This document shows positions 22,083 through 37,524 of a DNA stretch of 64,000 nucleotides, in pieces. Origin of the DNA: Rhizobium sp. 007 (GTDB lineage Bacteria; Pseudomonadota; Alphaproteobacteria; Rhizobiales; Rhizobiaceae). The stretch spans positions 62,001 through 126,000 of the forward strand of contig NZ_CP064189.1 of the NCBI RefSeq assembly GCF_015353075.1, written 5' to 3'. The translations under genes and the position numbers were made by a program. How positions within the stretch are numbered: position 1 is the stretch's first letter; each line of letters starts with the position of its first letter. The notes under the pieces were generated by a model. It was not told the DNA's origin. It saw only the letters and a list, made by a program, of their open reading frames with translations, and ran no database searches.

Positions 22083-22361
22083 TCACTTGCTGAGTGCATC
22101 CTTCAGCGCCTTGGCCGGCGCAAAGGTGAGCTTCTTGGCGGCGGCGACCTTGATGGTCGCGCCGGTCGCCGGATTGCGCGCTTCGCGCTCGGGCGTCGCT
22201 TTCACCTTGAACTTGCCGAAGCCGGGCAGCGACGTTTCGTTGCCGGCAACTGCCGCCTCGGTAATCGAAGCGACAACCGCTTCGACGATAGCTTTGCCTT
22301 GAACCTTGGTCAGGCCATGTTCCGCGGCGATCTTGTCGGCGATTTCGTTCGTAGTGGTCAT
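22083..22361 (-). CDS. hup: HU-family DNA-binding protein
   Basis: This 92-aa protein matches HU/IHF: MTTTNEIADKIAAEHGLTKV, GNETSLPGFGKFKVKATPER and EARNPATGATIKVAAAKKLT, with the conserved PGFGKF and RNPATG motifs of the DNA-bending arm. It compacts DNA without sequence specificity. A plasmid-coded HU may reduce the burden of plasmid DNA on host chromatin or help replication or transfer. It is transcribed on its own, opposite to the DUF736 genes. Confidence 0.9.
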   Translation of the reverse strand: MTTTNEIADKIAAEHGLTKVQGKAIVEAVVASITEAAVAGNETSLPGFGKFKVKATPEREARNPATGATIKVAAAKKLTFAPAKALKDALSK

Positions 22362-23175: not shown

Positions 23176-23517
23176 TTAGGCGATGCTCTCTGCTGGCGAG
23201 CGCGGTTTAGGCCTGTACCCGCGCGAGCGCTTCTGTCTGAGAACGTCCAGGAAGAGCGCGACCGCTTCCTCCTCGTGCGTGAAATGATGCGCCAGACTCT
23301 GACCTCCCGCACCGATGCGCCCCCAGCGACGAATAAGGCACGCCTCCCCGAACAGCGTCGGCTCGATCGACATAGCATAATAGCGGGCCATGTTTTTCGT
23401 GGCGTCCGTGCGTTCGACATACAGCTGATAAGGTTGTGCAAGCATGCCGGCAGGATTGCGCACAGCGGATTCCGAGTCCAACGAGATATTTGAATCGGTC
23501 GGTCGCGATTGATTCAT
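23176..23517 (-). CDS. WGR-domain protein
   Basis: This 113-aa protein has a WGR domain (QLYVERTDATKNMARYYAMS, ACLIRRWGRIGAGGQSLAHH, FTHEEEAVALFLDVLRQKRS) covering most of the chain, with the defining W-G-R in RRWGRIG. WGR domains bind nucleic acid in PARP1-3 and in the bacterial MolR family; short stand-alone versions are common on rhizobial plasmids. The start could be further upstream (23,547 or 23,634); ATG 23,517 is chosen as closest to the domain. Confidence 0.7.
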   Translation of the reverse strand: MNQSRPTDSNISLDSESAVRNPAGMLAQPYQLYVERTDATKNMARYYAMSIEPTLFGEACLIRRWGRIGAGGQSLAHHFTHEEEAVALFLDVLRQKRSRGYRPKPRSPAESIA

Positions 23518-23783
23518 GACGATGATGGGTTGTCGGACACGCGGCATGATTTGGACGAGCCGCCTGCGGCGGACGGTGCTATTCGCTATTGCTCGCCCAG
23601 TCGGGTGACGGCCCTCTCGCAGTCGCGGCACCATGGGTGCGCATAAAGCGACCTCAGCAAGTCAGGAGAGGTTCATTCGCCGGCCGAACCGGGAGTGGGC
23701 ACGACGCCTCCGGCGTCGTGGGCTCTTCATCTGACCTCCCATTTTGCACCCGCCACTCCTGCGTTAAGGACTGCGCGGCCCAT

Positions 23784-23875
23784 CCAATTTTCCAGCCGAC
23801 GTCCGTTTGGACGCCACCAGAAAATCGGCTCCTCCGCTTGCCGCCGCTGGCGGTCGTGATGCGATCCCTGACCCC
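23784..23875 (+). promoter_or_regulatory. Structured leader, copy C
   Basis: CCAATTTT (23,784-23,791) and AAAATCGG (23,821-23,828) surround a GC-rich loop. CTCCTCCGC and GATCCCTGACCCC (about 23,860) follow, as in copies A and B. The gene after it has no clear start codon. Confidence 0.5.
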
Positions 23876-24578
23876 TCGCGCTTACGGTGCGGCCCTCCTT
23901 CGGTCAGAGAACGAATATATCGACGGTGGCAGCCCGGAATACTGGCGACAGCGGACTGAGGGTGTCCGCCTCATTCGCGAGGCGGACAGGGCACTGGCAC
24001 GTGTCGAGAGAGCGCCCATGTACATCTCCGGCGGCTATGACGAGGACGGCGATGTGATCCCCTTCGAGAACCTGGGTCCATGGGATGCGAGGGACGCGGC
24101 GATCCGCGCCATCGAGGCAGACGAGACGGCCGTCGACATCCTCGTCGCCCTGCGCCGGGCACACTTCGGCCTATGGCGCATCAACGCAGTGATGGGCGAA
24201 CTCGAATTGGCCGAAGCCGATCACGCGGAGACCCCCCAGATCAATCCGCTCCTGGAACCTCCAACTCTCCCTGTGGTGCAGGTCGAGACCCGCCCGGCCT
24301 TTCGGGCCGTTAGGCGGACGCTGCCGCGACTTCCCCAAACAAGACGGAAAGGACGTGCACCTTGCGCTGCGCCCTCATGCTTCGGGCGTCCGCTCCAGGT
24401 GCACGTCCTTTCCTGCGGTGCGCGAGCCGTCTCATCGTTCGGATGTCATCGATGCCCGCTCCCTCCGGTCCCGGACATCCCGACACCTCACGACGACGGC
24501 TCGCTTCAGCATCTCTCACCAAACCGGTCTGGCCAGCGTGCTGGTGCTTCGGCGCGATCACAGACACATGGCCTGTGA
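23859..24578 (+). CDS. Uncertain ORF, probably a degraded gene in its first part
   Basis: Between about 23,900 and 24,300 the frame looks coding (NEYIDGGSPEYWRQRTEGVR, APMYISGGYDEDGDVIPFEN, RRAHFGLWRINAVMGELELA). The only upstream ATG (23,859) lies in the leader copy, and the next is internal (24,018). Beyond 24,345 the frame runs into an inverted-repeat region and is unlikely to be protein. The gene is either read from a weak start or broken at both ends. No domain recognised. Confidence 0.3.
   Translation: MRSLTPRAYGAALLRSENEYIDGGSPEYWRQRTEGVRLIREADRALARVERAPMYISGGYDEDGDVIPFENLGPWDARDAAIRAIEADETAVDILVALRRAHFGLWRINAVMGELELAEADHAETPQINPLLEPPTLPVVQVETRPAFRAVRRTLPRLPQTRRKGRAPCAAPSCFGRPLQVHVLSCGARAVSSFGCHRCPLPPVPDIPTPHDDGSLQHLSPNRSGQRAGASARSQTHGL
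24346..24413. repeat. Perfect 17-bp inverted repeat with 34-nt spacer
   Basis: GGAAAGGACGTGCACCT at 24,346-24,362 is the exact reverse complement of 24,397-24,413. It opens a ~1 kb non-coding stretch of unusual structure. Confidence 0.85.
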
Positions 24579-24656
24579 TCGCTGTTGCTTTGTCTGACGA
24601 CTCGCAACAGCATTGGCGCCTCGGGCACGCTGGCCAGACCCGGTTTGGTGAGAGAT
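24511..24656. repeat. Nested inverted repeat (31/32-bp outer arms, two inner hairpins)
   Basis: The outer arms at 24,511-24,541 (start ATCTCTCACCAAACC) and 24,625-24,656 pair along their whole length with a single one-base bulge. Between them are two perfect hairpins: GCGATCACAG (24,554-24,563) with CTGTGATCGC (24,573-24,582), and GCTGTTGC (24,581-24,588) with GCAACAGC (24,604-24,611). As single-stranded DNA or RNA the whole 146 nt would fold into a cross with a long stem and two inner arms. Confidence 0.85.
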
Positions 24657-24665
24657 GGCAGGATA

Positions 24666-24687
24666 GGCTAATGGTATACCATTAGCC
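24666..24687. repeat. Perfect 22-bp palindrome
   Basis: The half-site GGCTAATGGTA is followed at once by its reverse complement, with no spacer. It lies 10 bp to the right of the nested inverted repeat and could be an operator or a nicking or replication signal. Confidence 0.85.
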
Positions 24688-24860
24688 GTTTCGCCCGGGG
24701 GGGGCGATCGTCGCAAAGGCGAGCGAGGGCTTCAGCGATCTTTCATTTTGTCGAGCTGGGTACGAAACAAGGCCGCGAGGGATAGACGTCGGGCCGGTAG
24801 GAGGGGTTGAGGCTGGGCGACCGCTTTCGTGGAGCGGGGAGCTTCCAGCCGCCGGGAGAT

Positions 24861-25299
24861 GCACTGGCAATTCGGCAGTTATCCGGTTCCTCTAAACAGC
24901 GAATGGGTGAACCTGCCAATCGGTGAATCGCTGATTGGCCGAATCTGCGAATGCACAAATAGGCAAATCCTCGTTGCGCGAATAGGCGCCTCTCCGTTTG
25001 AGCGTATAGGTACGTCGGTGAATGAGGGGATCGGTATTTATGCCATTGAGTGAAACGGCAGATCGGCAACGAAGCAAATCCGCGAAACGGTGCGCCACTG
25101 ATCGGGCGAATGTGCGTCTGACCGATCCCGGCAATCGGTGAATAGGTGATTGCGTCGATCGCTGATTGGGTGTTTGCGTGAACGCGCAATTGGGCGGCTC
25201 GGTGAGCAACTCATTCCGGAAATGAGCATTTGACCGAGCCGGTGAATCGGTGAGCGAGGGAATCACCCATTTCGCGAAACGGTGAAAGCGCGTCCAAGC
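24861..25299. repeat. Array of ~54 degenerate octamers with strict 8-bp period
   Basis: The sequence is a row of 8-bp units with consensus about GAATCGGY: for example gaatgggt at 24,901, gaatcgct at 24,925, gaatctgc at 24,941, aaataggc at 24,957, gaataggc at 24,980, gaatgagg at 25,020, gaatgtgc at 25,108, caatcggt at 25,132, gaataggt at 25,140, gaatcggt at 25,244 and gaatcacc at 25,260. The phase is constant from 24,861 to 24,972 and again from 24,980 to the end, with one 1-nt slip near 24,975. All three minus-strand frames are open over most of it, which follows from the period not being a multiple of 3 and argues against a real protein. It lies between the palindrome cluster and the T4SS operon. 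Confidence 0.8.
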
Positions 25300-25471
25300 C
25301 ATTAGCAGGCTTTGCCGACGTCGCTATGTCGACGCCTGGAAATGCCGCATCTCACGGATGGTTGCGCTAGCTGGTTATGACGACTTGCTTTTCTCACATC
25401 ACCGCCATGGAGCCGGTCGTGGCGAAGTCCTCGCTTTTTCCCGCTTGAGCAAGCCATCCGCGGCTGATAAA

Positions 25472-25487
25472 TTATACCGGAGTATAA
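25472..25487. promoter_or_regulatory. 16-bp palindromic box (T4SS regulon), copy 1
   Basis: TTATACCGGAGTATAA, a near-perfect palindrome. It matches TTATACCGCAGTATAA at 26,900-26,915 and related boxes at 26,844-26,859 and 47,517-47,532. It stands ~110 bp before the first gene of the T4SS region. Confidence 0.7.
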
Positions 25488-25594
25488 GTTGTTCATTCGA
25501 TCAAAGCTGCGGGCAGACCGATATTTCGTTTCATCAATAATAGGGTTTGACTCTGATACACAATCGATCCCTCCTGACGAAGGAATGGTACAAA

Positions 25595-26329
25595 GTGCCA
25601 TTTACAGCGGACTGCTCGGGTTGTGGCGCACAGACGCGGTCCGCCGCGATCGTGGTTGGCCCTTCGAGCCTGGTCGGGGACGCCGGGTCCGTGTCGGAGA
25701 GCGATATCCTCACAAAGCCTTGGAGACCACTGGATGCCTTCGCATTCGTCGAGTCACTGAGCGGTCAGACGGATCGTGTCGAACGCTTTGTGGTCCACCG
25801 CTTCTACAGCGCTTTCGCTTTCACGAATGGCCGGTTGACGTCGATCTGCCAGCATTGCGCGGAAAGCCTTCCGCCCGCTGCAATTCGCTCCGCTGTGATG
25901 AACGGCTTTGTCCGGTTTGGACAGAGGCGCCTTCTTGTCAACGAGCGCTTGCTGTTCTTTGCGTCCGACGTAGTGCTGACGGAATTTCGTGGCGCAACCT
26001 CGATCGCGGAAAGTGCCATGCAGGATCCGGACTATGCACTCCTGCTCATTTGTGACACCGAAAGCGCGATCGGCGAAACCGGCACGATCGAGCTCTGGCA
26101 CAGCGTTGCGCGGGGCGACTACGCCATCGTGGTCAAAGGCCACGAAGGTCGCGAGATATTGCTGGACGCCCTCAACGATGACCTAAAGGACGTCGTGGCA
26201 ACCATTTCCGATCTCGGATTGGTGCTCACCCAGCTTCACCTCGCACAGGCCTCGTCACGCTATTGCGAGCTCGCCCGCGACCTTTTCCTCGAAGCCCTCG
26301 AACAGGCCGGCTATCGGCAGGCAAGCTAG
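25595..26329 (+). CDS. Hypothetical protein at head of T4SS region
   Basis: This 244-aa protein starts at the GTG at 25,595, which has GAAGGA 11 bp upstream; a TTG at 25,547 in the same frame is an alternative. Two Cys pairs (CSGCG near the start and CQHC at residue ~88) could form a zinc site. The rest (LLFFASDVVLTEFRGATSIA, LLLICDTESAIGETGTIELW, ARDLFLEALEQAGYRQAS) is mixed alpha/beta without a known motif. It follows box 1 and is 12 bp upstream of a lipoprotein gene, so it likely belongs to the transfer regulon. Confidence 0.5.
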   Translation: MPFTADCSGCGAQTRSAAIVVGPSSLVGDAGSVSESDILTKPWRPLDAFAFVESLSGQTDRVERFVVHRFYSAFAFTNGRLTSICQHCAESLPPAAIRSAVMNGFVRFGQRRLLVNERLLFFASDVVLTEFRGATSIAESAMQDPDYALLLICDTESAIGETGTIELWHSVARGDYAIVVKGHEGREILLDALNDDLKDVVATISDLGLVLTQLHLAQASSRYCELARDLFLEALEQAGYRQAS

Positions 26330-26340
26330 AAAGCGACGCT

Positions 26341-26796
26341 ATGCGAATTTCCACGAAGCTCTTCGGATCCCTGGCGGCAATGATCGTGCTGGCCGGATGC
26401 GGTCATCAGGTCGAGCAGCCACGCCCGCGGCCGCCGGCGCCATTTGCGTATCTCAGCCTCGCCGCCTGCAGGGCCTATCGGGACAATATCGTCGAGTGCC
26501 AGCTTGAATATGGCACCGACTTCGGACGCCAGCGTCTTGGCCCCGTCCAGGAGAGGGGCCTGTCGATTGCCAGCGACGACGGACGCTACCAGATCGAGTC
26601 CTGCTATCCGGTGGCGAGGATACAGAAGGAATTACCCAATTTCGTGTGCCGAATCTCTGCGGGCCGGTCAGGCGCCGATGCCGGTTCGGTACTGGTCAAG
26701 GGCGGTACAGCCGTGCGCCTCGCACGCATTTTGGGTGATTGGGAACAGCTCCAGTATCGCTGGACTCCAGATAAATGGTCCCGGCTACGCGATTGA
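26341..26796 (+). CDS. Small lipoprotein
   Basis: This 151-aa protein has a lipoprotein signal (MRISTKLFGSLAAMIVLAGC, lipobox LAGC, mature Cys at residue 20). The mature part contains several Cys residues (SLAACRAYRDNIVECQLEYG, then SCYPV and FVCRIS) that may form disulphides in the periplasm. The sequence resembles no family known to me. It precedes virB1 and could be an entry-exclusion or envelope accessory factor of the T4SS. Confidence 0.6.
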   Translation: MRISTKLFGSLAAMIVLAGCGHQVEQPRPRPPAPFAYLSLAACRAYRDNIVECQLEYGTDFGRQRLGPVQERGLSIASDDGRYQIESCYPVARIQKELPNFVCRISAGRSGADAGSVLVKGGTAVRLARILGDWEQLQYRWTPDKWSRLRD

Positions 26797-26843: not shown

Positions 26844-26915
26844 TTATACTCCAGTGAAACTTTTAGGTTGATTTCCGTAACGGAATGCAGTTCAAAAGCT
26901 TATACCGCAGTATAA
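26844..26915. promoter_or_regulatory. Tandem 16-bp boxes before virB1 (copies 2 and 3)
   Basis: TTATACTCCAGTGAAA at 26,844-26,859 and the palindrome TTATACCGCAGTATAA at 26,900-26,915 lie 56 bp apart (start to start) in the gap before virB1. Because copy 3 lies inside a longer open frame beginning at 26,885, the virB1 start must be the ATG at 26,933. Confidence 0.7.
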
Positions 26916-26932
26916 TTTGCACTGGTTCGGCC

Positions 26933-28084
26933 ATGGATCGCATCCCGCTTTCGCCTGTGAACAGACCGCACAAGACATGGTCGCGAAGCGCGCTGTGGAT
27001 CGCCGGAACGTCGGCCTTCCTGCTCACCGGCTTCGCATCCGGCCCTGGCGGCAGCAACCTTCACATCCCTTCCGGAATACCTACACAGGCAAGTAAATCT
27101 GGCGGCACAAGTGCGAAGGCGGGGAAGCTCGCGGCTCTGCCGGCGCCACTCCTAGCGTCGTCTGCCGCTGTTGCGACAAAGCAGCCGGCTGTCCCAACAA
27201 TCGATCGGATTAGCTTCAACCAACGCTTTGACGGGCCGCACGATGAAGATCGGATGTGGGCGGCCAGGGCTCTTCCGTTGGATATTCTTGGAGAGTTTGA
27301 TAGCAGTTCTGCGAGATTACCAGGAGCGGCTGACGGCGCAAATGCACGGCGTCAACGCAGCGTGCATTCTCCCATCAGCGTCTACTCTCATGACTGGATG
27401 CCGGCTTCTCCGATCACTGATCCGGTAACCGAACCACTTGTCGATGCTAGCGGGTTAGCGGCACAGGCTCGATCCGATCTTTTATCCGGCATCCCCGAGG
27501 ACTATGCCAGGCTCGCACTGACAATCGCCGCCGCGGAGGAGGTTGATCCGAACTGGGTGCTTTCCGTCATGCGGGCCGAAAATGTCGGTTTCGATCCAGG
27601 CCTGGTCAGTTCCGCCGGCGCCGTCGGATTGATGCAGGTGATGCCACGGATCGGCGAGGCCTTCGGTGCGAAGGATTTGACCGATCCCGAACAGAATATC
27701 CGCGCCGGCACACGGTTTCTCCGGATACTTATCGACAAATATCGCAATCCGGTCCTCGTCGCTGCGGCTTACAATGCCGGCGAACCCAACGTCGACCTTC
27801 GCCATTCCTTGCCGTTGATCCGCGAGACCGCCGACTATGTCACGCGTGTCGTCGGATATTACACCGGCACAGCAGCCGGGCCGACCTTTCCGCCCACAGG
27901 CCCGACTTCGACGCCCGCGCCCGGTTCTCCCCGCCGCGTGGGACCCGCCGAGCGAGCCAGATCTCCCATGCTTGTTTTCTCTGCAGCAAAGCCGATCCCG
28001 CCAGACGCCCGTCCTCAGCATGAGGAGGGGCGAAAAGATCCTGGTGGGCCGGTCAAAATTGTCAAGGAAGAGGTGCTTGAATGA
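26933..28084 (+). CDS. virB1: VirB1-type lytic transglycosylase
   Basis: This 383-aa protein has an N-terminal membrane/signal segment (SALWIAGTSAFLLTGFASGP), a Pro/Ala-rich linker, and an SLT domain at residues ~185-300 (YARLALTIAAAEEVDPNWVL, SVMRAENVGFDPGLVSSAGA, VGLMQVMPRIGEAFGAKDLT, LVAAAYNAGEPNV). The catalytic Glu is in MRAEN, and VGLMQVMP and AAYNAGE are standard SLT motifs. It opens the peptidoglycan for assembly of the T4SS. It is longer than VirB1 of Agrobacterium (about 240 aa). It overlaps virB2 by 4 bp. Confidence 0.85.
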   Translation: MDRIPLSPVNRPHKTWSRSALWIAGTSAFLLTGFASGPGGSNLHIPSGIPTQASKSGGTSAKAGKLAALPAPLLASSAAVATKQPAVPTIDRISFNQRFDGPHDEDRMWAARALPLDILGEFDSSSARLPGAADGANARRQRSVHSPISVYSHDWMPASPITDPVTEPLVDASGLAAQARSDLLSGIPEDYARLALTIAAAEEVDPNWVLSVMRAENVGFDPGLVSSAGAVGLMQVMPRIGEAFGAKDLTDPEQNIRAGTRFLRILIDKYRNPVLVAAAYNAGEPNVDLRHSLPLIRETADYVTRVVGYYTGTAAGPTFPPTGPTSTPAPGSPRRVGPAERARSPMLVFSAAKPIPPDARPQHEEGRKDPGGPVKIVKEEVLE

Positions 28085-28452
28085 ATCCCATCGCGTTGGC
28101 AGTCCAAACTGCCGTCCTCTATGGCAGCGTCGCCTGGTCCTCAATGGCCCGGCGGAAATGGGTCGGCAATGTCGCCATCGTACTTGCAGCGAGCTTGATC
28201 CTGCTCGTCAGCCAGTACGAACCGGCGGCGGCGCAGAATCTTGATCGTCTCCAGCAGGCGGCAGATCGCCTGGTGCAGTTCTTCACCGGCCCATTCGGTC
28301 GTTCTGTCGGAGCGATCGCCTTCATCGGCATGTTCCTTGCCGCAGCCTTCGGATACTGGTCCTGGGGCGCTCTCCTGCGCGTTGCCGGTTGCCTTGCCGG
28401 CATGTTTGCTGCAGCCGAGCTCGTCGACTTCCTCGCCGGTGGGGGAGCTTAA
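28081..28452 (+). CDS. virB2: VirB2 major pilin
   Basis: This 123-aa TrbC/VirB2-type protein starts at 28,081 by overlap with virB1 or at the ATG at 28,144. A hydrophobic leader ending near PAAAQ (VAIVLAASLILLVSQYEPAA) gives a mature pilin with two transmembrane helices (VGAIAFIGMFLAAAFGYWSW and LLRVAGCLAGMFAAAELVDF). VirB2 subunits build the T-pilus and the inner channel. Confidence 0.8.
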   Translation: MNPIALAVQTAVLYGSVAWSSMARRKWVGNVAIVLAASLILLVSQYEPAAAQNLDRLQQAADRLVQFFTGPFGRSVGAIAFIGMFLAAAFGYWSWGALLRVAGCLAGMFAAAELVDFLAGGGA

Positions 28453-28454
28453 CC

Positions 28455-28778
28455 ATGGCGGCCGGAAACGACACTGACAGCGGAGACGACTACATCGAAT
28501 CCTGTCCCGTCATCCTCGCGCTGACGCGGCCACCGACCGTCATGGGAATACCCTATACGTATTTCCTGGCCGAGTGCTTCGTCTCGCTGATGGCCTTCAT
28601 GATTCTCGGATCCATTCTCTGGTTCCCGGTCTCCTTCGTCGTTCTCCACGGCATCCTTTACGTGCTCACCGTCAAGCTCGACCTCTGGTTTTTCGAAATC
28701 GTCGGTCGGCTGAGCATGTGCGGCGTCAATCCTCTCGGCCGGAAGCTCGGCGGCGGCGTCAGAACCTACGGGGTGTGA
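28455..28778 (+). CDS. virB3: VirB3 inner-membrane protein
   Basis: This 107-aa protein has the VirB3 pattern: a short cytosolic start with PVILALTRPPTVMGIPYTYF, then two close membrane segments (VSLMAFMILGSILWFPVSFV, VLHGILYVLTVKLDLWFFEI). It starts 3 bp after virB2. VirB3 works with the VirB4 ATPase at the inner-membrane complex. Confidence 0.85.
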   Translation: MAAGNDTDSGDDYIESCPVILALTRPPTVMGIPYTYFLAECFVSLMAFMILGSILWFPVSFVVLHGILYVLTVKLDLWFFEIVGRLSMCGVNPLGRKLGGGVRTYGV

Positions 28779-28781
28779 GCG

Positions 28782-31301
28782 ATGCACACGATGGCCAGAT
28801 CGCTGAAAGGAAGTCTGTCGAAGGGCTGGGAGATCTTCGCGGATCGTAGTGTCGCCACCCATGTCCCTTTCTATGTGCCGATCGAGAACGGCATCATCCG
28901 CCTGAAGAACGACTGCCTCGTCTCGACCCTGAAGCTGACCGGGTTTTCCTTCGAGACAGCTGATATCGAGACGATCAACATGCTGCAGCGGCAGCGCAAC
29001 GCCGCCTTCCGCGCGATCTCCTCGATCGGCAGCTTTGCGCTCTACACCCATGTCGTCAGGCGCAAGGTCGCACCGTCGCTGCCCTCGGCCTTCGCCGATC
29101 CCTTCATGCGGCGTCTCGATGACGTCTATCAGGCGGGCATCTCGAAGAACGAGATGTTCGTCAACGACACCTATGTCTCGCTGGTCGTGCGACCCATGTT
29201 CAGGAAAGGGTCGGCTCTCTCGCGCATCATGGGCGCCGGCGGCACTATCGTGCGCAAGGAACAATTCCGCGCGATGCGCGACAAGCTGGTCGAGGCGACG
29301 CGGGCGCTGGAGAAATCGCTTGCCGTCTACGGCCCGAAGGTCCTGCGCGATGTGCAGCGCGTGCAGGCGGACCTCGGCGATAACAGGACGATCTTCCGTG
29401 ACGTCTCGGAAGACATGGTGGTCGATGAGGCCGCGCGAAAAGTCTGGTTCTCCGAACAGTGCGAGTTCTTCTACACGCTCCTCAATGGCGGACGCGTCCG
29501 ACCGATCCGGCTTGGGAACATCCCGATCGACGAGATGCTGCCGGCGCGCAGGACGTCGATCGGCAACCGCATCATCCACCTGCAGGGTGACACCGCCGAT
29601 GACGACCGCTATGCGGCGATAGTCTCACTGAAGGAGTATCCGCCCGAAACCGGCGCCGGCATGCTCGACTATATCCTCAAGCTGCCATTCGAATTGGTGC
29701 TGACCCAGTCGATGTCCTTTGTCGACGACATGGCGGCACGCGGCCGGATCGAACGGCTGGACCGCCAGATGTCGAAGGCCGACGAAGGTGGGTCCAGCGT
29801 CCAAGCCAACCTCGACATCGCCCGCGACGAGCTCGCCCGCAAACGCGTTGCCTTCACCGAGCATCATCTGACTGTCATGCCGGTCGCAAAATCCATCGCC
29901 CAGCTCGACGATGCGGTGGCCCTAATCGGAAACGAACTCGGCGCTCTCGGCGCCTCCTACGTCCGCGAGGATCTAAATGCCGAACCGGCCTATTGGGCGC
30001 AACTTCCCGGCAATCAGGCCTATATCGCGCGCCGGGCCTTGATCTCGACACTCAACTGCGCCGGGCTGAGCAGCTTCCATGCCTATCCCTACGGCAAGCC
30101 GGACGGCAATCATTGGGGACCGGCGATCACCATCTTTGAGACGACCTCCGGTACGCCATTCTTTTTCAACTTCCACCAGGGGGACGTCGGGCACACGACC
30201 GTCTTCGGCCCGACCGGGTCGGGCAAGACCGTCATCATGGCCTTCCTGATCCTACAGGCCTATCGCGTCAGCCCACGATTGAAGACGATCGTCTTCGACA
30301 AGGATCGCGGCCTCGACATCATGGTGCGGGCGGCGGGCGGAACCTACATGACGCTGGAGCCCGGCCAGCCGTCGGGTTGGAACCCGCTGCTGCTCGAGGA
30401 TACTGAGGAGAACCGCGTTTTTCTTTACCGGCTCCTGAGCTTCATGCTGAAGCCGTCGAAGGAAGGCGAAAGCCTGACGCCGCAAGAAGAATCAATCATC
30501 CGCAATGCGATCAAATCCGTCCTCAAGACAAAGGACAGGTCGTATCGCCGTCTCTCGTCGCTGCGAGCACTGCTCGCCGGCAGCGAGAGGACCGAAGGCA
30601 GCCTGATCGCCCGGCTCGACAAATGGGTCGACAAGGGACCCTACGCCTGGCTCTTCGACAACGCTGAGGACAGTCTCGATATCTCCAGGCCGATGATCGG
30701 CTTCGACATGACGTCGATCCTCGACGATCCGACCGTGCGCACCGCAGCCCTTCTCTATATGTTCCACCGGCTGGACGAGATCTACGACGGCAAGGCGCCG
30801 ATCATCAACCTGATGGACGAAGCCTGGAAGCTGCTCGACGACGACGAGTTCAAGCGCACGATGAAGGACTACTTCAAGACCATCCGAAAGAGGAATGGTC
30901 TCGTCATCTTCGGCACGCAGTCGGCCGACGATGTGGTGCGTTCGAGCGTCAGCCGCACAATCATCGAACAGACATCGACGAACATCTTCTTTGCCAATCC
31001 GAAGGCTGACGAAAGCTCCTACATGGAGCATTTCGGCCTATCCCGGGCGGAGTTCGAATGGGTCAAGAACGGCGATCCGAGCTCGCGTTTCATGCTGATC
31101 AAGCAGGCGAAGAACAGCGTGATTGCCCGCGTGGACATGTCCCACATGCCCGAATTCATCAAGGTGCTGTCCGGTCGCGAGGAGACGGTGCGCGAGGTCG
31201 AGATGCTGCTCGACGAATATGGCGGCGATCCGAAGAACTGGCTTTCGAAATTCTGCGACTGGGATGGGGTGGCGGTCGATGAAGAACGCAAAGCGTCTTG
31301 A
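28782..31301 (+). CDS. virB4: VirB4 ATPase
   Basis: This 839-aa protein has the CagE/VirB4 N-terminal domain and a C-terminal ATPase domain. Walker A is FGPTGSGKTVIMAF at residue ~480; Walker B is near PIINLMDEAWKLLDD (residue ~680); a VirB4-typical motif is FGTQSADDVVRSSVSRTIIE. VirB4 is the large motor of the secretion channel. The length is in the usual range (about 790-850 aa). Its end overlaps the next gene by 23 bp. Confidence 0.95.
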   Translation: MHTMARSLKGSLSKGWEIFADRSVATHVPFYVPIENGIIRLKNDCLVSTLKLTGFSFETADIETINMLQRQRNAAFRAISSIGSFALYTHVVRRKVAPSLPSAFADPFMRRLDDVYQAGISKNEMFVNDTYVSLVVRPMFRKGSALSRIMGAGGTIVRKEQFRAMRDKLVEATRALEKSLAVYGPKVLRDVQRVQADLGDNRTIFRDVSEDMVVDEAARKVWFSEQCEFFYTLLNGGRVRPIRLGNIPIDEMLPARRTSIGNRIIHLQGDTADDDRYAAIVSLKEYPPETGAGMLDYILKLPFELVLTQSMSFVDDMAARGRIERLDRQMSKADEGGSSVQANLDIARDELARKRVAFTEHHLTVMPVAKSIAQLDDAVALIGNELGALGASYVREDLNAEPAYWAQLPGNQAYIARRALISTLNCAGLSSFHAYPYGKPDGNHWGPAITIFETTSGTPFFFNFHQGDVGHTTVFGPTGSGKTVIMAFLILQAYRVSPRLKTIVFDKDRGLDIMVRAAGGTYMTLEPGQPSGWNPLLLEDTEENRVFLYRLLSFMLKPSKEGESLTPQEESIIRNAIKSVLKTKDRSYRRLSSLRALLAGSERTEGSLIARLDKWVDKGPYAWLFDNAEDSLDISRPMIGFDMTSILDDPTVRTAALLYMFHRLDEIYDGKAPIINLMDEAWKLLDDDEFKRTMKDYFKTIRKRNGLVIFGTQSADDVVRSSVSRTIIEQTSTNIFFANPKADESSYMEHFGLSRAEFEWVKNGDPSSRFMLIKQAKNSVIARVDMSHMPEFIKVLSGREETVREVEMLLDEYGGDPKNWLSKFCDWDGVAVDEERKAS

Positions 31302-32451
31302 GAGAGCCGCGGCCAGCGCTCTGGTGGTGTTCTTGACCCTTGCCGGGGGCTCGAGCAACGCCCAGGTGCCGGTGATCGACAAGGCCCGCCAGAAGATCCA
31401 GCAGGCGACCCTGAACTGGTACCAGTCCTATCAGGCCGATACCCGCAAAGTCAAAGGCGCCTCGGGCGGCACGACCGATAGTGTCGCGCCCGGCCAGGGC
31501 TCGGGCGCTCCCGCCGATTGCTCAGCGGACGGCATGGCCGGTGACACCGCGCTGGCGGCACCATCCAGTCGCACGCCGAGTCAGCAGGAAGTCGCACGCA
31601 TGGTCGAGGAGGAGGCGATCCGGCAGGGTGTCGATCCGAATTTCGCGCTCGCAATCGCGGAGCAGGAATCCCGCTTTCGTCAGTCCGCCCGGTCGGCGGT
31701 CGGCGCCACGGGCGTCATGCAATTGATGCCGGGTACAGCCGCGCAACTTGGCGTCAATCCCTATGATACGCGCGACAATATTCGCGGCGGCGTCAAATAC
31801 ATCAAGCAGCTCCAGGGGATGTTCGGCGACCGCTACGACCTGATCGCCGCTGGCTACAATGCCGGACCGTATCGGCAGTCGCTGCAGAATGGTCAGATTC
31901 CCAATATTCCGGAGACCCAGGACTACGTCCAGAAAGTCTCCAGCTATTACCGCCGCAACAAGGCTCAGAATGGTGATCGAGCACCGGCGGAGGGCACAAC
32001 CGAGCCCGAAACCGCAAGCTACGGGAATGGCTGCGGCGAGCAGTTGAAGAAGGCCGTCGACCGCAACACGCAGGCGCAGGTCGAGCGAGGTTCGGTCTGG
32101 AACGAGCTGCTCGGTAAATCCATAGCGGCGAACCAGCAATATCTTCAGCGCCTGCAAGCGGGGCTGCAATCGTCATCGGCAAGCCTGCGCGGCAGTGGCG
32201 GCGGAAATTCCGGAGATCACGACGGCTCGCTGGTGATGGCCGAGATCCGGTGCCCGACCAACATCATCGACACCGGCGGCACGCGCTGCTTTGCCGTTCC
32301 TTCAAGCGCCACCACCGAGCAGATCCAGCGTTGGCTTTCCGACCTGCAAGATGAGGCGCGCGCCAACGGCACGGTCGCGACCTTCGCGGCAATGCAGGAT
32401 CCCGCGCTCGGCCTCGTCACGGTCGTCGATTCCCGACCGACAGCAAACTGA
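31279..32451 (+). CDS. Second lytic transglycosylase of the T4SS
   Basis: This 390-aa protein starts at the ATG at 31,279 inside the end of virB4. It has a signal peptide (residues ~10-28, ASALVVFLTLAGGSSNAQ) and an SLT domain (ARMVEEEAIRQGVDPNFALA, IAEQESRFRQSARSAVGATG, VMQLMPGTAAQLGVNPYDT, LIAAGYNAGPYRQSL) with the catalytic Glu in IAEQESRF. A C-terminal part has two Cys (EIRCPTNIIDTGGTRCFAV). It lies between virB4 and virB5, so the operon has two transglycosylases; the second may act at a later assembly step or on a different wall substrate. Confidence 0.85.
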   Translation: MKNAKRLERAAASALVVFLTLAGGSSNAQVPVIDKARQKIQQATLNWYQSYQADTRKVKGASGGTTDSVAPGQGSGAPADCSADGMAGDTALAAPSSRTPSQQEVARMVEEEAIRQGVDPNFALAIAEQESRFRQSARSAVGATGVMQLMPGTAAQLGVNPYDTRDNIRGGVKYIKQLQGMFGDRYDLIAAGYNAGPYRQSLQNGQIPNIPETQDYVQKVSSYYRRNKAQNGDRAPAEGTTEPETASYGNGCGEQLKKAVDRNTQAQVERGSVWNELLGKSIAANQQYLQRLQAGLQSSSASLRGSGGGNSGDHDGSLVMAEIRCPTNIIDTGGTRCFAVPSSATTEQIQRWLSDLQDEARANGTVATFAAMQDPALGLVTVVDSRPTAN

Positions 32452-32473
32452 ACAATGAAGAGAGGTTAGGCAT

Positions 32474-33265
32474 ATGAAGACAGCAGTGATCGCACCGGCA
32501 TTCGCCATCCTACTCGTCTCGCACGCACATGCGCAGGTCCCCGTCAAAGATTCGGAGAACATCTCCATCAGCGAGGACATCAAGCGCCTGTCGTCCGAGA
32601 TCCAGCAGGACACCTCCGTCGTCAAAGACAACACGACGAAAACCTTGGCAGCGATCACCGGCGACCGGACGCAGGATGCCAGCCAGTTTGCCAAGCTTGC
32701 GACAGGCAATGGCTTCACCATGGGACAGGCGCCGGATTTCAGCACGGTGCTGTCGAGCAATCAGGCGGTGTTCGGAGGGATCGGCGGCCAATTCCAGAAC
32801 ACCGCAGCCAAACTGATCAACGGCCTCAACCTCGTGAAAATGGTGGTCGATACCGTCAAGGGCGGCGAGCTGTCCGGCGCAAACCAGGCCTATTCGCAAG
32901 GGATCAATGCCCTGACGACGCTGACGGCCCTCACCGACGCAATGAACAGCGCGACCAAGGACCGGCAGAACTCGTTCATGCAGGCCACACAGCAGATCGG
33001 AACGGCAAAGGATCTGAAGGGAGCGTTGGAGCAGAACACCCAGATGGTGCTTCAGGGCAACCAGACGGCAAACGAGGCCGTCGGCTCGCTCAACAACCAG
33101 GTCATGCTGCTGAACCAGCAGTACAAGGCAGCGCTTGCGACGTCGTCGCAGAACCTCAAGACCTTCGCTCCGCTTCCAGACAGCGTGATGCGTGGCAGCG
33201 GCACGGAGCCACAGGGCGCCTCGGTCCGCGACCAGTTGAAGGCCTTCGAGGAGCAGACCCAGTGA
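32474..33265 (+). CDS. virB5: VirB5 minor pilus protein
   Basis: This 263-aa exported protein has a signal peptide (AVIAPAFAILLVSHAHA) and a mature chain dominated by long helices rich in Gln, Asn, Thr and Ala (SSEIQQDTSVVKDNTTKTLA, NGLNLVKMVVDTVKGGELSG, QTANEAVGSLNNQVMLLNQQ). This is the VirB5/TrbJ-like build. It would cap the pilus and contact the recipient cell. The position between virB4 and virB6 fits. Confidence 0.75.
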   Translation: MKTAVIAPAFAILLVSHAHAQVPVKDSENISISEDIKRLSSEIQQDTSVVKDNTTKTLAAITGDRTQDASQFAKLATGNGFTMGQAPDFSTVLSSNQAVFGGIGGQFQNTAAKLINGLNLVKMVVDTVKGGELSGANQAYSQGINALTTLTALTDAMNSATKDRQNSFMQATQQIGTAKDLKGALEQNTQMVLQGNQTANEAVGSLNNQVMLLNQQYKAALATSSQNLKTFAPLPDSVMRGSGTEPQGASVRDQLKAFEEQTQ

Positions 33266-33504
33266 GGGCCATTTTCGCTCTGATGGTAAGCTGCGCCGCG
33301 CTGACCGGTTGTGCTGGAAAGTACGAACAGCTGGCGAAATGCTCGGCCGACGAAAACCCCGTGCCGGCCCTCGGATACGAGACCCAGCCTAACAGCACGC
33401 CGGCCGAAAATGCGCTGGCAGACGCGGTCAAGAACGATTGCGGACCGATGCGACCAGTCAATCAATTTCAGGATGAGATATGGATCCCGTCAGCTACGCG
33501 ATAA
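33262..33504 (+). CDS. virB7: VirB7-like lipoprotein
   Basis: This 80-aa protein starts with GTG at 33,262, overlapping virB5 by 4 bp. The signal ends in a lipobox (ALTGCAG, Cys at residue 17). The mature part has two further Cys (KCSADE and NDCGPM). VirB7 lipoproteins anchor VirB9 in the outer-membrane core complex; some proteins at this place act in entry exclusion instead (EexN-type). It overlaps virB6 by 25 bp. Confidence 0.6.
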   Translation: MRAIFALMVSCAALTGCAGKYEQLAKCSADENPVPALGYETQPNSTPAENALADAVKNDCGPMRPVNQFQDEIWIPSATR

Positions 33505-34553
33505 ATTTCTATGGCGACGCGCTTCGATATTTCGACAAGATCAACGAGGCCTCTCTGGAAAGGGCTTGGGGGCTGTTTGCCGAAAACAGCAATCTGGTTT
33601 CCGGCATCCTGGCGATCTTCTTGATCCTCTATTTTCTCTGGGGGGCGCTCGGACTTTCGAGTGTATCCCTTCAGGATATGGCGATTACCGCATTCAAGAT
33701 CACACTCGCCTATGCCCTGATTATGTCCTGGGCGCTGTTCTACGACAATATCGGCCAGTTCGTGCTGTCGGCGCCGCAGGATCTCGGCTCCGCCATTTCC
33801 TCGGCAATGGGTGGCCAATCGGCGGGAGCGGATATCGCCCAGCAGGTCGCCAGCATGGCGCGCAAGGTCTACGACTTTGCCATGCAGCTCTTCAATTCCT
33901 ACGAGTCCGGATGGCTGCCTAATGTGACAGGCGCCGTCGTCGTCTTCATCGTGCTTGTCTTCGGACTGCTGCCGATGCTGCTGATCCTCACCGGCGTCAC
34001 GCTCTTTGCCAAGATGGTCAACGCCGTGATGCTGGCAATCGGACCGATTGCCATCCTCTGCTATTTCTTTGGGATCACTCGCTTCGTCTTCGACGCCTGG
34101 GTGAGGGGCGTTGCCTACGGCATGTTCATGCTGCTCTTTACCTATATCATGGCCGGGCTGTCGTTCGGGTTCCTGATCGGCATGATGGATACGATCAATG
34201 GCGACATGGCCACGAAAGAGAACGCACTGGCGATCGTGCTCGCCATGGTGCTCTACCTCGCACTGATCTCCTATTTCATCTTTCAGGTGCCGGATTTTGC
34301 GCGGACCTTCGCCTACGGCGCGGCCTTCTCCAGCGTTCCGGGCGGAGGTGGCGTCGACACCGCCTACAATACCGCCCGCAGGCGCCTTTCCTCCAGCAAT
34401 TCCCGCGCCGGCCAGGCTGCGGCCATAGCGCTTAGCACGCTGGCCGGCCCACGAGGCGCCGTCACCGCTGCTGCGCTTGCAGGCCGCGGCAGTGTCGCAG
34501 GCGCCGGCGCTCTCGGCCGCATGCTCACCAATCGCCGCCGCAACAGCGAATGA
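33480..34553 (+). CDS. virB6: VirB6 polytopic inner-membrane protein
   Basis: This 357-aa protein of the TrbL/VirB6 family has about six membrane helices (LVSGILAIFLILYFLWGALG, AITAFKITLAYALIMSWALF, VVVFIVLVFGLLPMLLILTG, GMFMLLFTYIMAGLSFGFLI, IVLAMVLYLALISYFIFQVP) and a central periplasmic loop between helices 2 and 3. It forms part of the translocation channel. The C-terminal tail is cytosolic and Ala/Arg/Ser-rich. Confidence 0.9.
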   Translation: MDPVSYAINFYGDALRYFDKINEASLERAWGLFAENSNLVSGILAIFLILYFLWGALGLSSVSLQDMAITAFKITLAYALIMSWALFYDNIGQFVLSAPQDLGSAISSAMGGQSAGADIAQQVASMARKVYDFAMQLFNSYESGWLPNVTGAVVVFIVLVFGLLPMLLILTGVTLFAKMVNAVMLAIGPIAILCYFFGITRFVFDAWVRGVAYGMFMLLFTYIMAGLSFGFLIGMMDTINGDMATKENALAIVLAMVLYLALISYFIFQVPDFARTFAYGAAFSSVPGGGGVDTAYNTARRRLSSSNSRAGQAAAIALSTLAGPRGAVTAAALAGRGSVAGAGALGRMLTNRRRNSE

Positions 34554-34612
34554 CGCGCTGGCTGCGAGGATAACGTTCACATTTTACCTATTGCGACGTC
34601 GAGGTTTGAAAT

Positions 34613-35347
34613 TTGGCATTGTTCAAAAGGCAATTGAAGTCGGCGCCGGCCGATCGTATCCCGGGCCCGCAAGACATCTATGATCAACATCTCTCATGGG
34701 GTGAGAAGAACCGCTCGCTGCGGACATTGATCGGTCTCATCCTGCTGGTCTTCGCGGTGGCGGGCTGGATCGTTGCCGGCGTGCTGTCCTTTTCCGTCGC
34801 ACAGCTTTTCCCGCTCGTGCGCACAGAGGTCGTGCCGCTGATCGTCGACAGGAACACCGGCTACATGGAGACCGTAACGACACTCGACAAGGACCGGTCA
34901 AACGTGTCCGAAATCCAGGCCGTACGCGCCTCCTTCGTCGGTAACTACGTCATCCGCCGCGAGACCTACGATCCACGATATCTCTCGGAAAACTTCGACA
35001 TGATCGCCCTCTGGTCGGATCCTGACGCCTCGGCCTTCAAGGACTACTCGGAGGGGATGAACCCTTCCAATCCCAGAGGACCGGTCAAGGCTATGGGTAC
35101 GACCGGCGAGATCCGCCCGGAAATCCTCTCGGTCAATCCGCTCAATCAGACGACGATGTCGGTGCGCTTCGAGACGAGAGAGCGGCGGCGCGGTGGCGAA
35201 GTCGTCAATCGCTGGTCCGCCACGGTTCGCTACCGGCAGATCAATCTGCCCGCCAGCAACCGGGTTCGGCTCTATAACCCGCTCGGCTTCGTCGTCACCG
35301 AATATGTGAAGGTTCCCGAGACCATGCCTTCGGGGCTCGTTCAATGA
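34613..35347 (+). CDS. virB8: VirB8 bitopic channel protein
   Basis: This 244-aa protein starts with TTG at 34,613 (ALFKRQLKSAPADRIPGPQD). It has one inner-membrane helix (LIGLILLVFAVAGWIVAGVL) and a periplasmic NTF2-like domain (VRTEVVPLIVDRNTGYMETV, ASFVGNYVIRRETYDPRYLS, RWSATVRYRQINLPASNRVR). VirB8 nucleates assembly of the inner-membrane complex. It overlaps virB9 by 4 bp. Confidence 0.9.
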   Translation: MALFKRQLKSAPADRIPGPQDIYDQHLSWGEKNRSLRTLIGLILLVFAVAGWIVAGVLSFSVAQLFPLVRTEVVPLIVDRNTGYMETVTTLDKDRSNVSEIQAVRASFVGNYVIRRETYDPRYLSENFDMIALWSDPDASAFKDYSEGMNPSNPRGPVKAMGTTGEIRPEILSVNPLNQTTMSVRFETRERRRGGEVVNRWSATVRYRQINLPASNRVRLYNPLGFVVTEYVKVPETMPSGLVQ

Positions 35348-36177
35348 GGCGGAGGACGGCAGGAATTATCATGTCACTGCTCTTGGCAGCATCATCGGCA
35401 CAGGCCGAACTCATTGCCCGGCCGGGCAGGCTCGATCCGCGCGTGCGCACCTTGCCCTATTCGGCCGAGCAGGTCTTCGTGGTGACCGGCACTTACGGGA
35501 TGGTGACGACGATCCTCTTCGGTGCGGATGAGGAGATCACCCAGGTCGTGGCCGGTGACACGGTCTCTTGGCAGATCCTCACATCGGCTGACAGGCGCTC
35601 GCTCACCCTGAAGCCGATGGAAAAAGATGCGCCGACCAACCTCTCGGTCGTCACGACGAAGCGCACCTATTCGTTCGATCTGGAGGTGAATGACAGCAAG
35701 GCGATCCAGAACCAGACCTTCAAGCTGCAGTTCATGTATCCGGAAGATGCCGGCTTGAAAGGAACGGCCGAACTGTGGAAACAGGCCCAAGACGCCGAAC
35801 GAAATCCCAACATCAAGAACATCCGCCGCGACAAGGTCAACTACGACTATGGCTTCAAGGGCAGCGATGCCGCCAAGCCGCTGTGGGTGTTCGACGATGG
35901 ACTGAAGACCTTCATGAAATTCACCGGCGATGTGCCGGCGATCTTCATCGTCGATAACAAGCGGCGGGAGAGCCTCGTCAATTATCGCCGTGAGGCGGAC
36001 TACATCGTCATCGACACGGTCTCGCGGCAGTGGACGCTGCGCTATGGCACCGAGAACGAGACCTGCCTGTTCAATCTCAGGACCGCTCCAGCCGATGTGC
36101 CGGCGCCGATCGAGGGTGCTGTCGCGCCCAAGCGGCTGGGCTCGGCAGGCGTCAGCGCCGCATCAAAATCGCGATAG
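35344..36177 (+). CDS. virB9: VirB9 core-complex protein
   Basis: This 277-aa protein has a signal peptide (MRRRTAGIIMSLLLAASSAQA) and the VirB9/TrbG layout: an N-terminal beta domain (RPGRLDPRVRTLPYSAEQVF) and a C-terminal domain (KVNYDYGFKGSDAAKPLWVF, DDGLKTFMKFTGDVPAIFIV) that pairs with VirB7 at the outer membrane. It ends 9 bp before virB10. Confidence 0.9.
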   Translation: MRRRTAGIIMSLLLAASSAQAELIARPGRLDPRVRTLPYSAEQVFVVTGTYGMVTTILFGADEEITQVVAGDTVSWQILTSADRRSLTLKPMEKDAPTNLSVVTTKRTYSFDLEVNDSKAIQNQTFKLQFMYPEDAGLKGTAELWKQAQDAERNPNIKNIRRDKVNYDYGFKGSDAAKPLWVFDDGLKTFMKFTGDVPAIFIVDNKRRESLVNYRREADYIVIDTVSRQWTLRYGTENETCLFNLRTAPADVPAPIEGAVAPKRLGSAGVSAASKSR

Positions 36178-36186
36178 GGAGGCACG

Positions 36187-37524
36187 ATGTCTGATCCGAA
36201 CTATCATTCGATCGAAAACGACACCGCGATTGGCGGGCAGGTGAGGCGCTCCGGGATCGGGCTGATGCGGCCGGTTGCGGTGGCATTGGCGATCGCCGGT
36301 ATCGGTGTCGTTCTCTATTTCCTGTTTTCCCGCGGCGAGCGGGAACCGACGGTCGACAATACCCTTCGGGAAGAGTTCCGTCCTGTCCAGGCGCCGAGAA
36401 ACGAAGGCTTCAACCCGCCGGCGCCGCCGCCCTTGCCGACAGTTCAGGTGCCCGAGGCGCCGCCTCCGCCACCACCCCCGCCTCCCGCTCCTGTGGGTCC
36501 GGTCCCCGCCCAGGTCGCGCCGCCGGTCGATGTCGATTGCTCCAGGGGAAACAATCCGGACAATCCAAGATGCATCGAGCTCGCCCGGCAGGCCAAGCTT
36601 CTCGAGCGCGTGCGCTCGACCGCCGTCGTCTTCGATCAGTCCGACGAGACGAACGGGGCCGCACGGGCTTCGTCCGATACCTCGGGAGCCGGGCTTTTCG
36701 GCGCGAATGACTCGCCAGGGACAGCCGCCGGCGCAAGCCCGGATGCAGGTAGTGCCGTCGATGGCGATCGCGCCTTTCTGAAGGCGATGGGTGGGCAGGG
36801 CGTGGAGGTCTCGGTTGCCGCCGAGAACCGCCGTATCGATGCCTGGATCCCGCAGGGCACGATGATCCGCGGCACGCTGGAGACAGCGGTCAATTCCGAT
36901 CTCGCCGGCATGGTGAGGGCGATCGTCCGGGAGGATGTCTATTCCTTCGACGGTCTGCGCATCCTGATACCCGCCGGCTCCTCGCTGATCGGCGACTACA
37001 AGTCCGGTGTCGAGCGCGGGCAGGAGCGCCTGTTCATCGTCTGGACGCGGATGATCCGCGGCGACGGCGTTTCGGTGCAGCTCGGCTCCTACGGCACGGA
37101 CCGTCTCGGCCGCTCCGGCATGACAGGCGACGTCGACCGAAAATACTGGGAGCGGTTTGGTCCACCGGCCCTCATGACGATGATCGGCGGAGTGACGCAG
37201 TATATCGCCCAGCTCGGTCAGAAACAGGATCGCAACATCACGATCGTCAATACGGACGGGACTGTGACCACTATTCTTCAGGATAACGGAACCACCTCGC
37301 AAGATCGGGCACGCGAGATCGCCGCCCAGACCATCGCGTCGGGGATCCAGCAGCTGGCGACGGAAGCCTTCCAGGACACAAGCAATATCCGTCCAACGAT
37401 CCATATTGCCCAGGGCTCCGACATCACCGTGTTCGTCACCCGGGACCTCGATTTCTCGGACCTCTATCCGGACCCAGTGCGCGAGGAATTCGACCGCCTG
37501 CGCAGAAAGAAGGCCGGCAAATGA
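36187..37524 (+). CDS. virB10: VirB10 core-complex protein
   Basis: This 445-aa protein has a short cytosolic start, one inner-membrane helix (MRPVAVALAIAGIGVVLYFL), a Pro-rich segment (APPPPPPPPPAPVGPVPAQV region at residues ~85-115) and a TrbI domain (GTMIRGTLETAVNSDLAGMV, YSFDGLRILIPAGSSLIGDY, RMIRGDGVSVQLGSYGTDRL). VirB10 spans both membranes and senses ATP use by VirB11 and VirD4. It overlaps virB11 by 4 bp. Confidence 0.95.
   Translation: MSDPNYHSIENDTAIGGQVRRSGIGLMRPVAVALAIAGIGVVLYFLFSRGEREPTVDNTLREEFRPVQAPRNEGFNPPAPPPLPTVQVPEAPPPPPPPPPAPVGPVPAQVAPPVDVDCSRGNNPDNPRCIELARQAKLLERVRSTAVVFDQSDETNGAARASSDTSGAGLFGANDSPGTAAGASPDAGSAVDGDRAFLKAMGGQGVEVSVAAENRRIDAWIPQGTMIRGTLETAVNSDLAGMVRAIVREDVYSFDGLRILIPAGSSLIGDYKSGVERGQERLFIVWTRMIRGDGVSVQLGSYGTDRLGRSGMTGDVDRKYWERFGPPALMTMIGGVTQYIAQLGQKQDRNITIVNTDGTVTTILQDNGTTSQDRAREIAAQTIASGIQQLATEAFQDTSNIRPTIHIAQGSDITVFVTRDLDFSDLYPDPVREEFDRLRRKKAGK

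Follow-up and report, generated by a model that had tools for sequence, protein, structure and literature searches.

A continuous row of degenerate octamers lies beside a predicted origin of transfer (oriT) in a Rhizobium genome, and we propose that it is probably a centromere dedicated to conjugation: by analogy with known systems, an overdrive-like site that would be read by a small ribbon-helix-helix (RHH) protein and would couple the relaxosome to a ParA ATPase. Computation shows that the array exists, how it is oriented, that it is linked to a conserved nic-like core and palindrome and recurs in several genera, that its consensus is constrained, and that ParA, the RHH protein, an accessory candidate and the relaxase are encoded in one operon. 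The window, i.e., the whole 64-kb stretch of DNA that was analyzed, covers 62–126 kb of a 461,509-bp contig in a 7.6-Mb genome, and its features are collected in Table 1.

Table 1. The octamer array, the predicted oriT and the neighboring transfer genes, in window coordinates.
Feature	Position	Strand	Basis or remark
HU-family gene	22083–22361		conserved; near the array in many relatives
Inverted repeat, left arm flanking the predicted nic	24510–24541	.	97% inverted match to 24625–24657
Inverted repeat, right arm, abutting the predicted nic	24625–24657	.	same 97% inverted match
Predicted MOBP nic core	24657–24667	-	top strand GGCAGGATAGG; minus strand CCTATCCTG^CC
Palindrome beside nic, expected relaxosome hairpin	24666–24687	.	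22 nt, GGCTAATGGTATACCATTAGCC
Octamer array	24863–25301	+	about 55 degenerate units, YGAWTSRG, one 7-mer; lag scan and model fits
Conserved ORF, start codon uncertain	25547–26329	+	no Pfam match; right of the array in many searched loci
VirB-type T4SS operon, to VirB10	26885–37524	+	synteny with annotated plasmids; VirB11 next in annotated relatives
VirD4/TraG-type coupling protein	38482–41331	+	best NCBIfam models VirD4/TraG-type, all sub-cut-off; synteny
ParA-family ATPase, VirC1-like	48007–48756	+	PF07015 VirC1; PDB ParA/ParF relatives
Small protein with putative C-terminal RHH domain, proposed octamer reader	48753–49166	+	sub-threshold profile matches
Relaxosome accessory candidate	49171–49563	+	no Pfam match
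MOBP-type relaxase	49529–51550	+	PF03432, 30.5 bits (cut-off 24.6); MobP1 model sub-cut-off

An initial annotation of this DNA had described the row of octamers and proposed comparing its autocorrelation with that of shuffled sequence. Lag-8 identity over 24861–25299 is 0.434, relative to 0.254 ± 0.022 in 1000 dinucleotide shuffles (z 8.2), so the periodicity is real. Lags of 16, 24, 32 and 40 are also raised (z 6.0, 9.6, 7.8 and 8.0, respectively), and at every other lag in the range 2–40 z is at most 1.3. When the whole window was scanned in 200-nt segments, the lag-8 maximum fell in the array (0.455; best elsewhere 0.35). In a cyclic 8-state model the array stays in phase between about 24863 and about 25301, through some 55 units of which the first few are weak, and the only 7-mer among them, at 24967–24973, is the slip that had been placed near 24,975. 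The rest of the window yielded no second octamer array: 5-octamer scores there reached at most 13.4, inside the range of ten simulated maxima (12.9–21.5), compared with 30.1 in the array. Tandem Repeats Finder detected only a 46-nt part of the array, as period 24.

Several familiar kinds of repeat can be set against these data. The octamers are contiguous and have no spacers, and the array is, as had been annotated, not CRISPR. That it represents iterons of a vegetative origin or incompatibility locus, a coding repeat or a structured RNA has, in our judgment, next to no probability. Origin iterons would stand beside a rep gene, and repC, on the same contig (C3:2582), is about 84 kb from the array, which speaks against a vegetative origin; the link to an origin suggested by the annotation thus holds for transfer, through the predicted oriT, and not for vegetative replication, and its suggestion of an incompatibility locus found no support. 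A coding repeat would agree with the hypothetical protein annotated on the minus strand across the array region of one relative (L072, 4466–5146), probably a spurious call. Against it, neither strand has a fully open frame in 39 of 46 distinct arrays. Minus-strand coding is rejected on this ground, which agrees with the earlier view that the row is unlikely to be coding; the open minus-strand frames remarked on in the window are not a family-wide feature (4/46 arrays have an open minus frame). A structured RNA, also raised earlier, is unsupported, as the Rfam search over 23500–26500 returned nothing at gathering score.

The cluster of palindromes that had been noticed next to the array is the predicted oriT itself. 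Two features of a MOBP-type oriT are present here, a conserved nic core beside an inverted repeat and a MOBP relaxase on the same element (PF03432 over cut-off). The minus-strand core CCTATCCTG^CC is, we assume, of the RP4/VirD2-type nic form, and from it the nick is expected on the minus strand between 24659 and 24658. The core GGCAGGATAGG had no mismatch in 33 of the 34 loci first compared, a set that includes near-identical loci, and one mismatch in L023. Across 75 loci the neighboring palindrome occurs in 20 distinct versions over 23 nt (19 over 22 nt): its outer pairs 1–5 are Watson-Crick in 17–18 of the 20, and the variable pairs 6–17, 7–16 and 8–15 are Watson-Crick in 12, 15 and 20 of them, with changes on both sides. 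Relaxase typing of 13 PLSDB records with this oriT gave eight MOBP, one MOBQ and four untyped. The best-conserved block adjoining the array (24600–24725, mostly 84–90% in relatives) contains the nic core, and the array begins some 200 bp from that core. By the predicted polarity, the genes for DUF736 and HU would be on the leading side, and the array followed by the VirB operon would be on the trailing side. To the left of the oriT, at 24351–24406, there is a further inverted repeat made of GGACGTGCACCT and its complement; as a structured RNA this stretch was rejected, its sub-threshold match to an Rfam miRNA family being taken as spurious. The conserved ORF to the right of the array is often the next conserved gene past it, although L062 has it some 10 kb more distant.

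The annotation had also called for a search of other Rhizobiales for arrays of the same period. The region matched 51 PLSDB records, i.e., plasmids of Rhizobium (42), Agrobacterium (8) and Neorhizobium (1), of which mobility typing classes 39 as conjugative and 12 as non-mobilizable. The nic-core pattern retrieved 42 stretches from GTDB genomes of Rhizobium, Agrobacterium, Neorhizobium, Ensifer, Ciceribacter, ‘Aliirhizobium’ and Mesorhizobium (three stretches, one of them a chromosome), together with one contig labelled Pseudomonas putida. With the loci compared earlier, the set numbers 75, of which 52 are distinct and 49 of these long enough on both sides; this count leaves out 23 near-identical loci, three short loci and L020, which has an altered palindrome. 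With a line of 0.42 that was set after a first look at the lag-8 values, the lag-8 maximum on the right side of nic was at or above this value in 47/49 loci, and on the left side in none (0/49); when ten other lags were tried on the right side, any of them came up to the line in 3/49. The two misses are L023 and, just under the line, L114; L020, from genome G007, has an oriT without an array, and counting it gives 47/50.

The gene for the RHH protein co-occurs with the oriT. Of 100 genomes, our own included, 17 have a match to the oriT core at E ≤1e-10; the RHH gene was found in 12 genomes, all belonging to these 17, and in 11 of the 12 an array lies beside the oriT. The exception, G037, has the T4SS, ParA, RHH and relaxase genes and shows no array in the 80 kb examined, which include an oriT fragment. 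In this genome (L054–L056) the T4SS, ParA, RHH and relaxase genes lie at about 948–971 kb of a 1.53-Mb contig, and the array-less oriT-like fragment is about 440 kb away. Five genomes have the oriT and gave no RHH match; four of them carry the array and one, G007, does not. In the 40–60 kb around their oriT no T4SS, ParA or relaxase match was found, as expected of mobilizable plasmids, the remainder of these replicons having been searched for the RHH gene only; an array kept in four of the five would fit a cis site that is served in trans. Absences of the RHH gene are provisional because the searches scored few candidates per genome (42, and 10 in a second set, which gave matches in 4/397).

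The unit of the array was derived by unseeded expectation-maximization. YGAWTSRG emerged in nearly all Rhizobium-type arrays (59 arrays, 46 distinct), with the window matrix used to rotate the other matrices and not to seed them; one other array search was seeded. These fits left out the array-less L020 and L023 and 15 GTDB loci that duplicated contigs already included or had no downstream sequence. Arrays L084 and L119 depart from this consensus, and the Mesorhizobium arrays also differ. The orientation of the unit relative to nic is uniform except in L119, by margins that are small because the unit resembles its own complement. In the matrix pooled over 42 of the 46 arrays (L084, L119, L069 and L108 left out), position 8 is the firmest (G, 0.75). 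A palindromic unit was considered and rejected as not significant, since 720 of 5040 position permutations were as good or better, and the symmetry of the unit thus lends no support to a site for a symmetric dimer.

The array consensus is under selective constraint. In five of six hand-chosen ortholog pairs, consensus bases were conserved above off-consensus bases: between the window and L008, conservation was 0.834 at consensus bases (343) and 0.602 at off-consensus bases (128; p 2.9e-7), between the window and L010 it was 0.815 and 0.500 (p 1.0e-9), and three of the other four pairs were significant, L016–L066 being the one that was not. When the phase was shifted by four bases as a control, the effect was gone (0/6 pairs significant). 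Pooling 131 overlapping pairs at ≥70% identity from 23 arrays, here without the phase control, gave 0.828 for consensus compared to 0.602 for off-consensus bases. In addition, identity of the array to that of the window, a measure somewhat inflated by the alignment of periodic DNA, exceeded identity at VirB4 four-fold sites in 8/8 comparisons, e.g., 0.771 versus 0.673.

Gaps were also counted between close relatives. Over overlapping and so non-independent pairs (≥86% identity, ≥180 aligned bases, ≤8 gaps), 37 of 98 were single-base and 17 were multiples of 8; the idea that indels come strictly in multiples of 8 is not borne out. Indels of many sizes, and the perfect local repeat runs in L084, L096 and L118, which indicate that recent tandem expansion occurs, are what would be expected if the array were a neutral minisatellite, born by slippage, now in decay and hitchhiking on the oriT. 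We regard this as highly improbable, given that consensus positions are conserved in phase, that YGAWTSRG recurs among arrays less than 70% identical, that the array is one-sided in 47/49 loci and that it evolves more slowly than VirB4 four-fold sites. The array thus seems to be both renewed by tandem expansion and kept by purifying selection. The initial annotation is partly supported as a whole: the strict 8-bp phase that it described holds in the window but not across the family, where there are 1-nt indels in relatives and 0–9 slips per array in the fitted models, and the selection on spacing that it preferred to recent slippage agrees with the constrained consensus but not with the perfect tandem runs and single-nucleotide slips of relatives. 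Its suggestion of a non-coding landing pad for a repeat-reading protein gains support from the recurrence beside nic and the in-phase conservation of the consensus, and it is the one that we develop here.

Downstream of the T4SS genes, one operon encodes in order ParA, the RHH protein, the accessory candidate and the relaxase. The ATPase scores 29.7 bits with PF07015 VirC1 (cut-off 24) and higher with AAA_31 (49.8) and CbiA (45.5); among NCBIfam models ParA_partition ranks above VirC1, and the VirC1 equivalog model reaches 33.5 of its 313 cut-off. The relaxase carries a MobA/VirD2 nuclease domain. It was found by the family scan and missed by a PF03432 search of its own genome, a search that we do not use as evidence. 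The proposed reader has 137 amino acids, although in most aligned relatives the start is the ATG at 48762, nine bases later, and it has an N-terminus that is basic and conserved, and a block at the C-terminus that ends in KRKRISLYLDDNVLTKIFRVSLERHEQLSSATHRLILEALKARGL. In a PDB profile search the top matches of this block were HP0222 (E 0.017) and 2kel (E 0.078), both of which we take to be RHH proteins, and Pfam RHH_7 matched below cut-off. Support for assigning the protein to the RHH fold from its sequence is thus good but not formal. Pfam and PDB profile searches gave no VirC2 match for it.

We further compared the position of the array relative to this operon. The array and the RHH gene of the Rhizobium window are 23 kb apart. 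In an Ensifer locus (L095) and two Mesorhizobium loci (L108 and L116) they are adjacent, in the order nic, array, parA, RHH gene, accessory gene, relaxase gene, with the start of parA 424–484 nt from nic; the Mesorhizobium chromosome (L119) has nic, a weak array, parA and the RHH gene, where the examined stretch ends. A named M. terrae plasmid (L125), found via its relaxase, has the same order from nic to relaxase, and between its nic and parA there is an 8-bp periodic stretch with a unit of about TGACATTG (log-likelihood 62.3, relative to 30.1 ± 3.3 and a maximum of 39.5 in 30 mononucleotide shuffles). With the array directly upstream of parA in L095, L108, L116, L119 (the weak array) and L125, it could serve mainly as an operator through which the parA-RHH-relaxase operon regulates itself, with no direct role in transfer. 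This we consider distinctly unlikely: in the window some 23 kb separate the operon from the array and no octamers precede its parA (best local 5-octamer score 6.3), yet the array there stays beside nic and constrained, and four genomes that gave no RHH match still have it.

The RHH strand changes together with the unit. Rhizobium and Ensifer combine the strand RISLYL with the unit YGAWTSRG, L108 and L116 combine RVNLQL with about CGATTGCG, and M. terrae combines RVTLRL with about TGACATTG; the period of 8 bp is retained in all three, a covariation that rests on three RHH types. A constant pitch with strand and unit changing together is what reading of the octamers by the RHH protein would predict. 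Alternatively, the array might be an enhancer of oriT read by another protein, be it the accessory protein, HU or the relaxase, with ParA and the RHH protein acting elsewhere. An HU gene near the array in many relatives, an accessory gene that shares the operon with the RHH gene, and an accessory protein that has also diverged in Mesorhizobium (41–42% identity) would all be in keeping with such a reader. HU proteins generally bind DNA with little sequence specificity, and the HU gene is well conserved (71–95%, mostly ≥83%), whereas the unit changes between clades with the RHH strand. On balance, reading by one of these other proteins appears unlikely, with the accessory protein still a candidate.

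More distant relaxase relatives (L126–L130; relaxase 26–30% identical) delimit the association. An annotated ParA stands beside a small protein that is RHH-like by eye in L126, L127 and L130; L129 has an annotated AAA ATPase, and the 17 kb of L128 include no annotated ParA. Between ParA and relaxase there was no clear lag-8 array; the locus-wide lag-8 maximum of L130 does lie there, at 0.417, a value equalled at other lags. The array is thus not general to such ParA/relaxase pairs. In L126 (3026–4959), L127 (5526–7317) and L130 (5388–7330), ParA and the RHH-looking gene diverge from the accessory and relaxase genes, an arrangement that recalls virC/virD, and in L126 the sequence between the divergent pairs has AT-rich AAAC/GTTT motifs and not octamers.

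Among known systems, the met boxes of MetJ are tandem 8-bp sites that take one RHH dimer each, and they are few, palindromic and form a transcriptional operator. The unit of the array, unlike met boxes, has no significant symmetry. By analogy, the array may work like a parS of the ParA/RHH type, placed where overdrive sits. On plasmid pSM19035, contiguous short repeats, direct and inverted, are read by the RHH protein omega (ParB-pSM), which activates delta (ParA) and for this needs at least four contiguous 7-bp repeats, and parS overlaps the parA promoter (PMC9499535). The array likewise has contiguous, in-phase short repeats, although slips occur in relatives, and a linked parA with a small RHH gene, the RHH assignment being sub-threshold in Pfam; reading by that RHH protein is what we propose here, and the Mesorhizobium array preceding parA resembles the overlap of parS with the parA promoter. 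The differences are that the units of the array are 8 bp and not 7, that about 55 form one block compared to 7–10 per site, and that the array is strongly degenerate, lies at a predicted oriT and is linked to a relaxase.

The position is of the same class as that of overdrive. VirC1 and VirC2 are a ParA/ParB-like pair that together with overdrive promotes relaxosome assembly and polar recruitment (PMC8716806; PMC4949242; PMC4285021), and the overdrive of Ti plasmids lies to the right of the right-border nick site (PMC4285021) and is short, 24 nt in vectors (PMC5030305). The likeness, drawn by position and genes, lies in the class of position, in a ParA/ParB-like pair with a DNA site, and in a VirB/VirD4 channel, and the window does encode a VirC1-family ATPase (PF07015, ranking below two generic ParA-type families). 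For the RHH protein the Pfam and PDB searches gave no VirC2 match, and the process would be plasmid transfer between bacteria and not that of T-DNA. Repeats of 8 bp are also shared with Streptomyces clt, described as the cis site for conjugation via TraB, an FtsK-like double-strand DNA translocase that reads clt through an HTH and is the sole protein required for primary transfer (PMC5365140); there the reader is the translocase itself.

For the conjugation centromere that we favor, we infer nicking at the predicted site, binding by the RHH protein, activation of ParA and an effect on transfer, in the following sequence. Each RHH dimer would occupy a single octamer, so that adjoining dimers cover the whole array; the coated array would recruit and stimulate the VirC1-like ParA ATPase; and the recruited ParA would bring the nic-bound relaxase, some 200 bp away, to the VirB/VirD4 channel. 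Lying on the trailing side of nic by the predicted polarity, the array would enter the recipient last. Contiguity would be the selected property, degeneracy might be tolerated as neighbors bind cooperatively, and length would give avidity. Three residues of the RHH strand presumably face outward, by RHH geometry, and these would pair with the unit as R-S-Y with YGAWTSRG, R-N-Q with about CGATTGCG and R-T-R with about TGACATTG.

To our knowledge, little is understood of how ParA helps to bring a nicked plasmid to the secretion channel, and what is known of the DNA site recognized in VirC-type systems comes mostly from overdrive, a short element. We see an even chance that the array represents a new class of transfer origin: a conjugation-only centromere in which dozens of 8-bp boxes serve as a platform for a filament and an RHH protein is the adaptor for a VirC1-type ParA, with the outward strand residues setting the octamer and protein packing fixing the pitch, i.e., a counterpart of overdrive on bacterial plasmids. 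Such an octamer array was not described in titles or abstract openings among the matches listed, a coverage outside which most of the subscription literature lies. The 46 distinct arrays form a natural comparative set for asking which protein is the reader, how many octamers are needed and whether the strand sets the unit, and oriT plus array makes a recognizable oriT signature for many rhizobial plasmids.

This signature extends to a few unusual records. The A. pusense plasmid L078 (NC_022536; record text IRBL74_p), which we take to be that of strain IRBG74, carries the oriT core described here together with a lag-8 array that is short. For the IRBG74 symbiosis plasmid, a published survey that used oriTfinder reported no oriT (PMC10272884). 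A rhizobial-type oriT with a short array is also found in L091, the contig labelled as the gammaproteobacterium Pseudomonas putida KH-21-134. The deviant unit AGAACARG belongs to the A. pusense locus L084, within whose 8 kb none of the searched genes was found. On one 26-kb contig of A. pusense LMG 25623 (L084 and L092), the oriT motif occurs twice, on opposite strands, through either an inverted duplication or perhaps an error of assembly, and next to each motif ACAAGAGA octamers, this deviant unit, follow one another without a mismatch.
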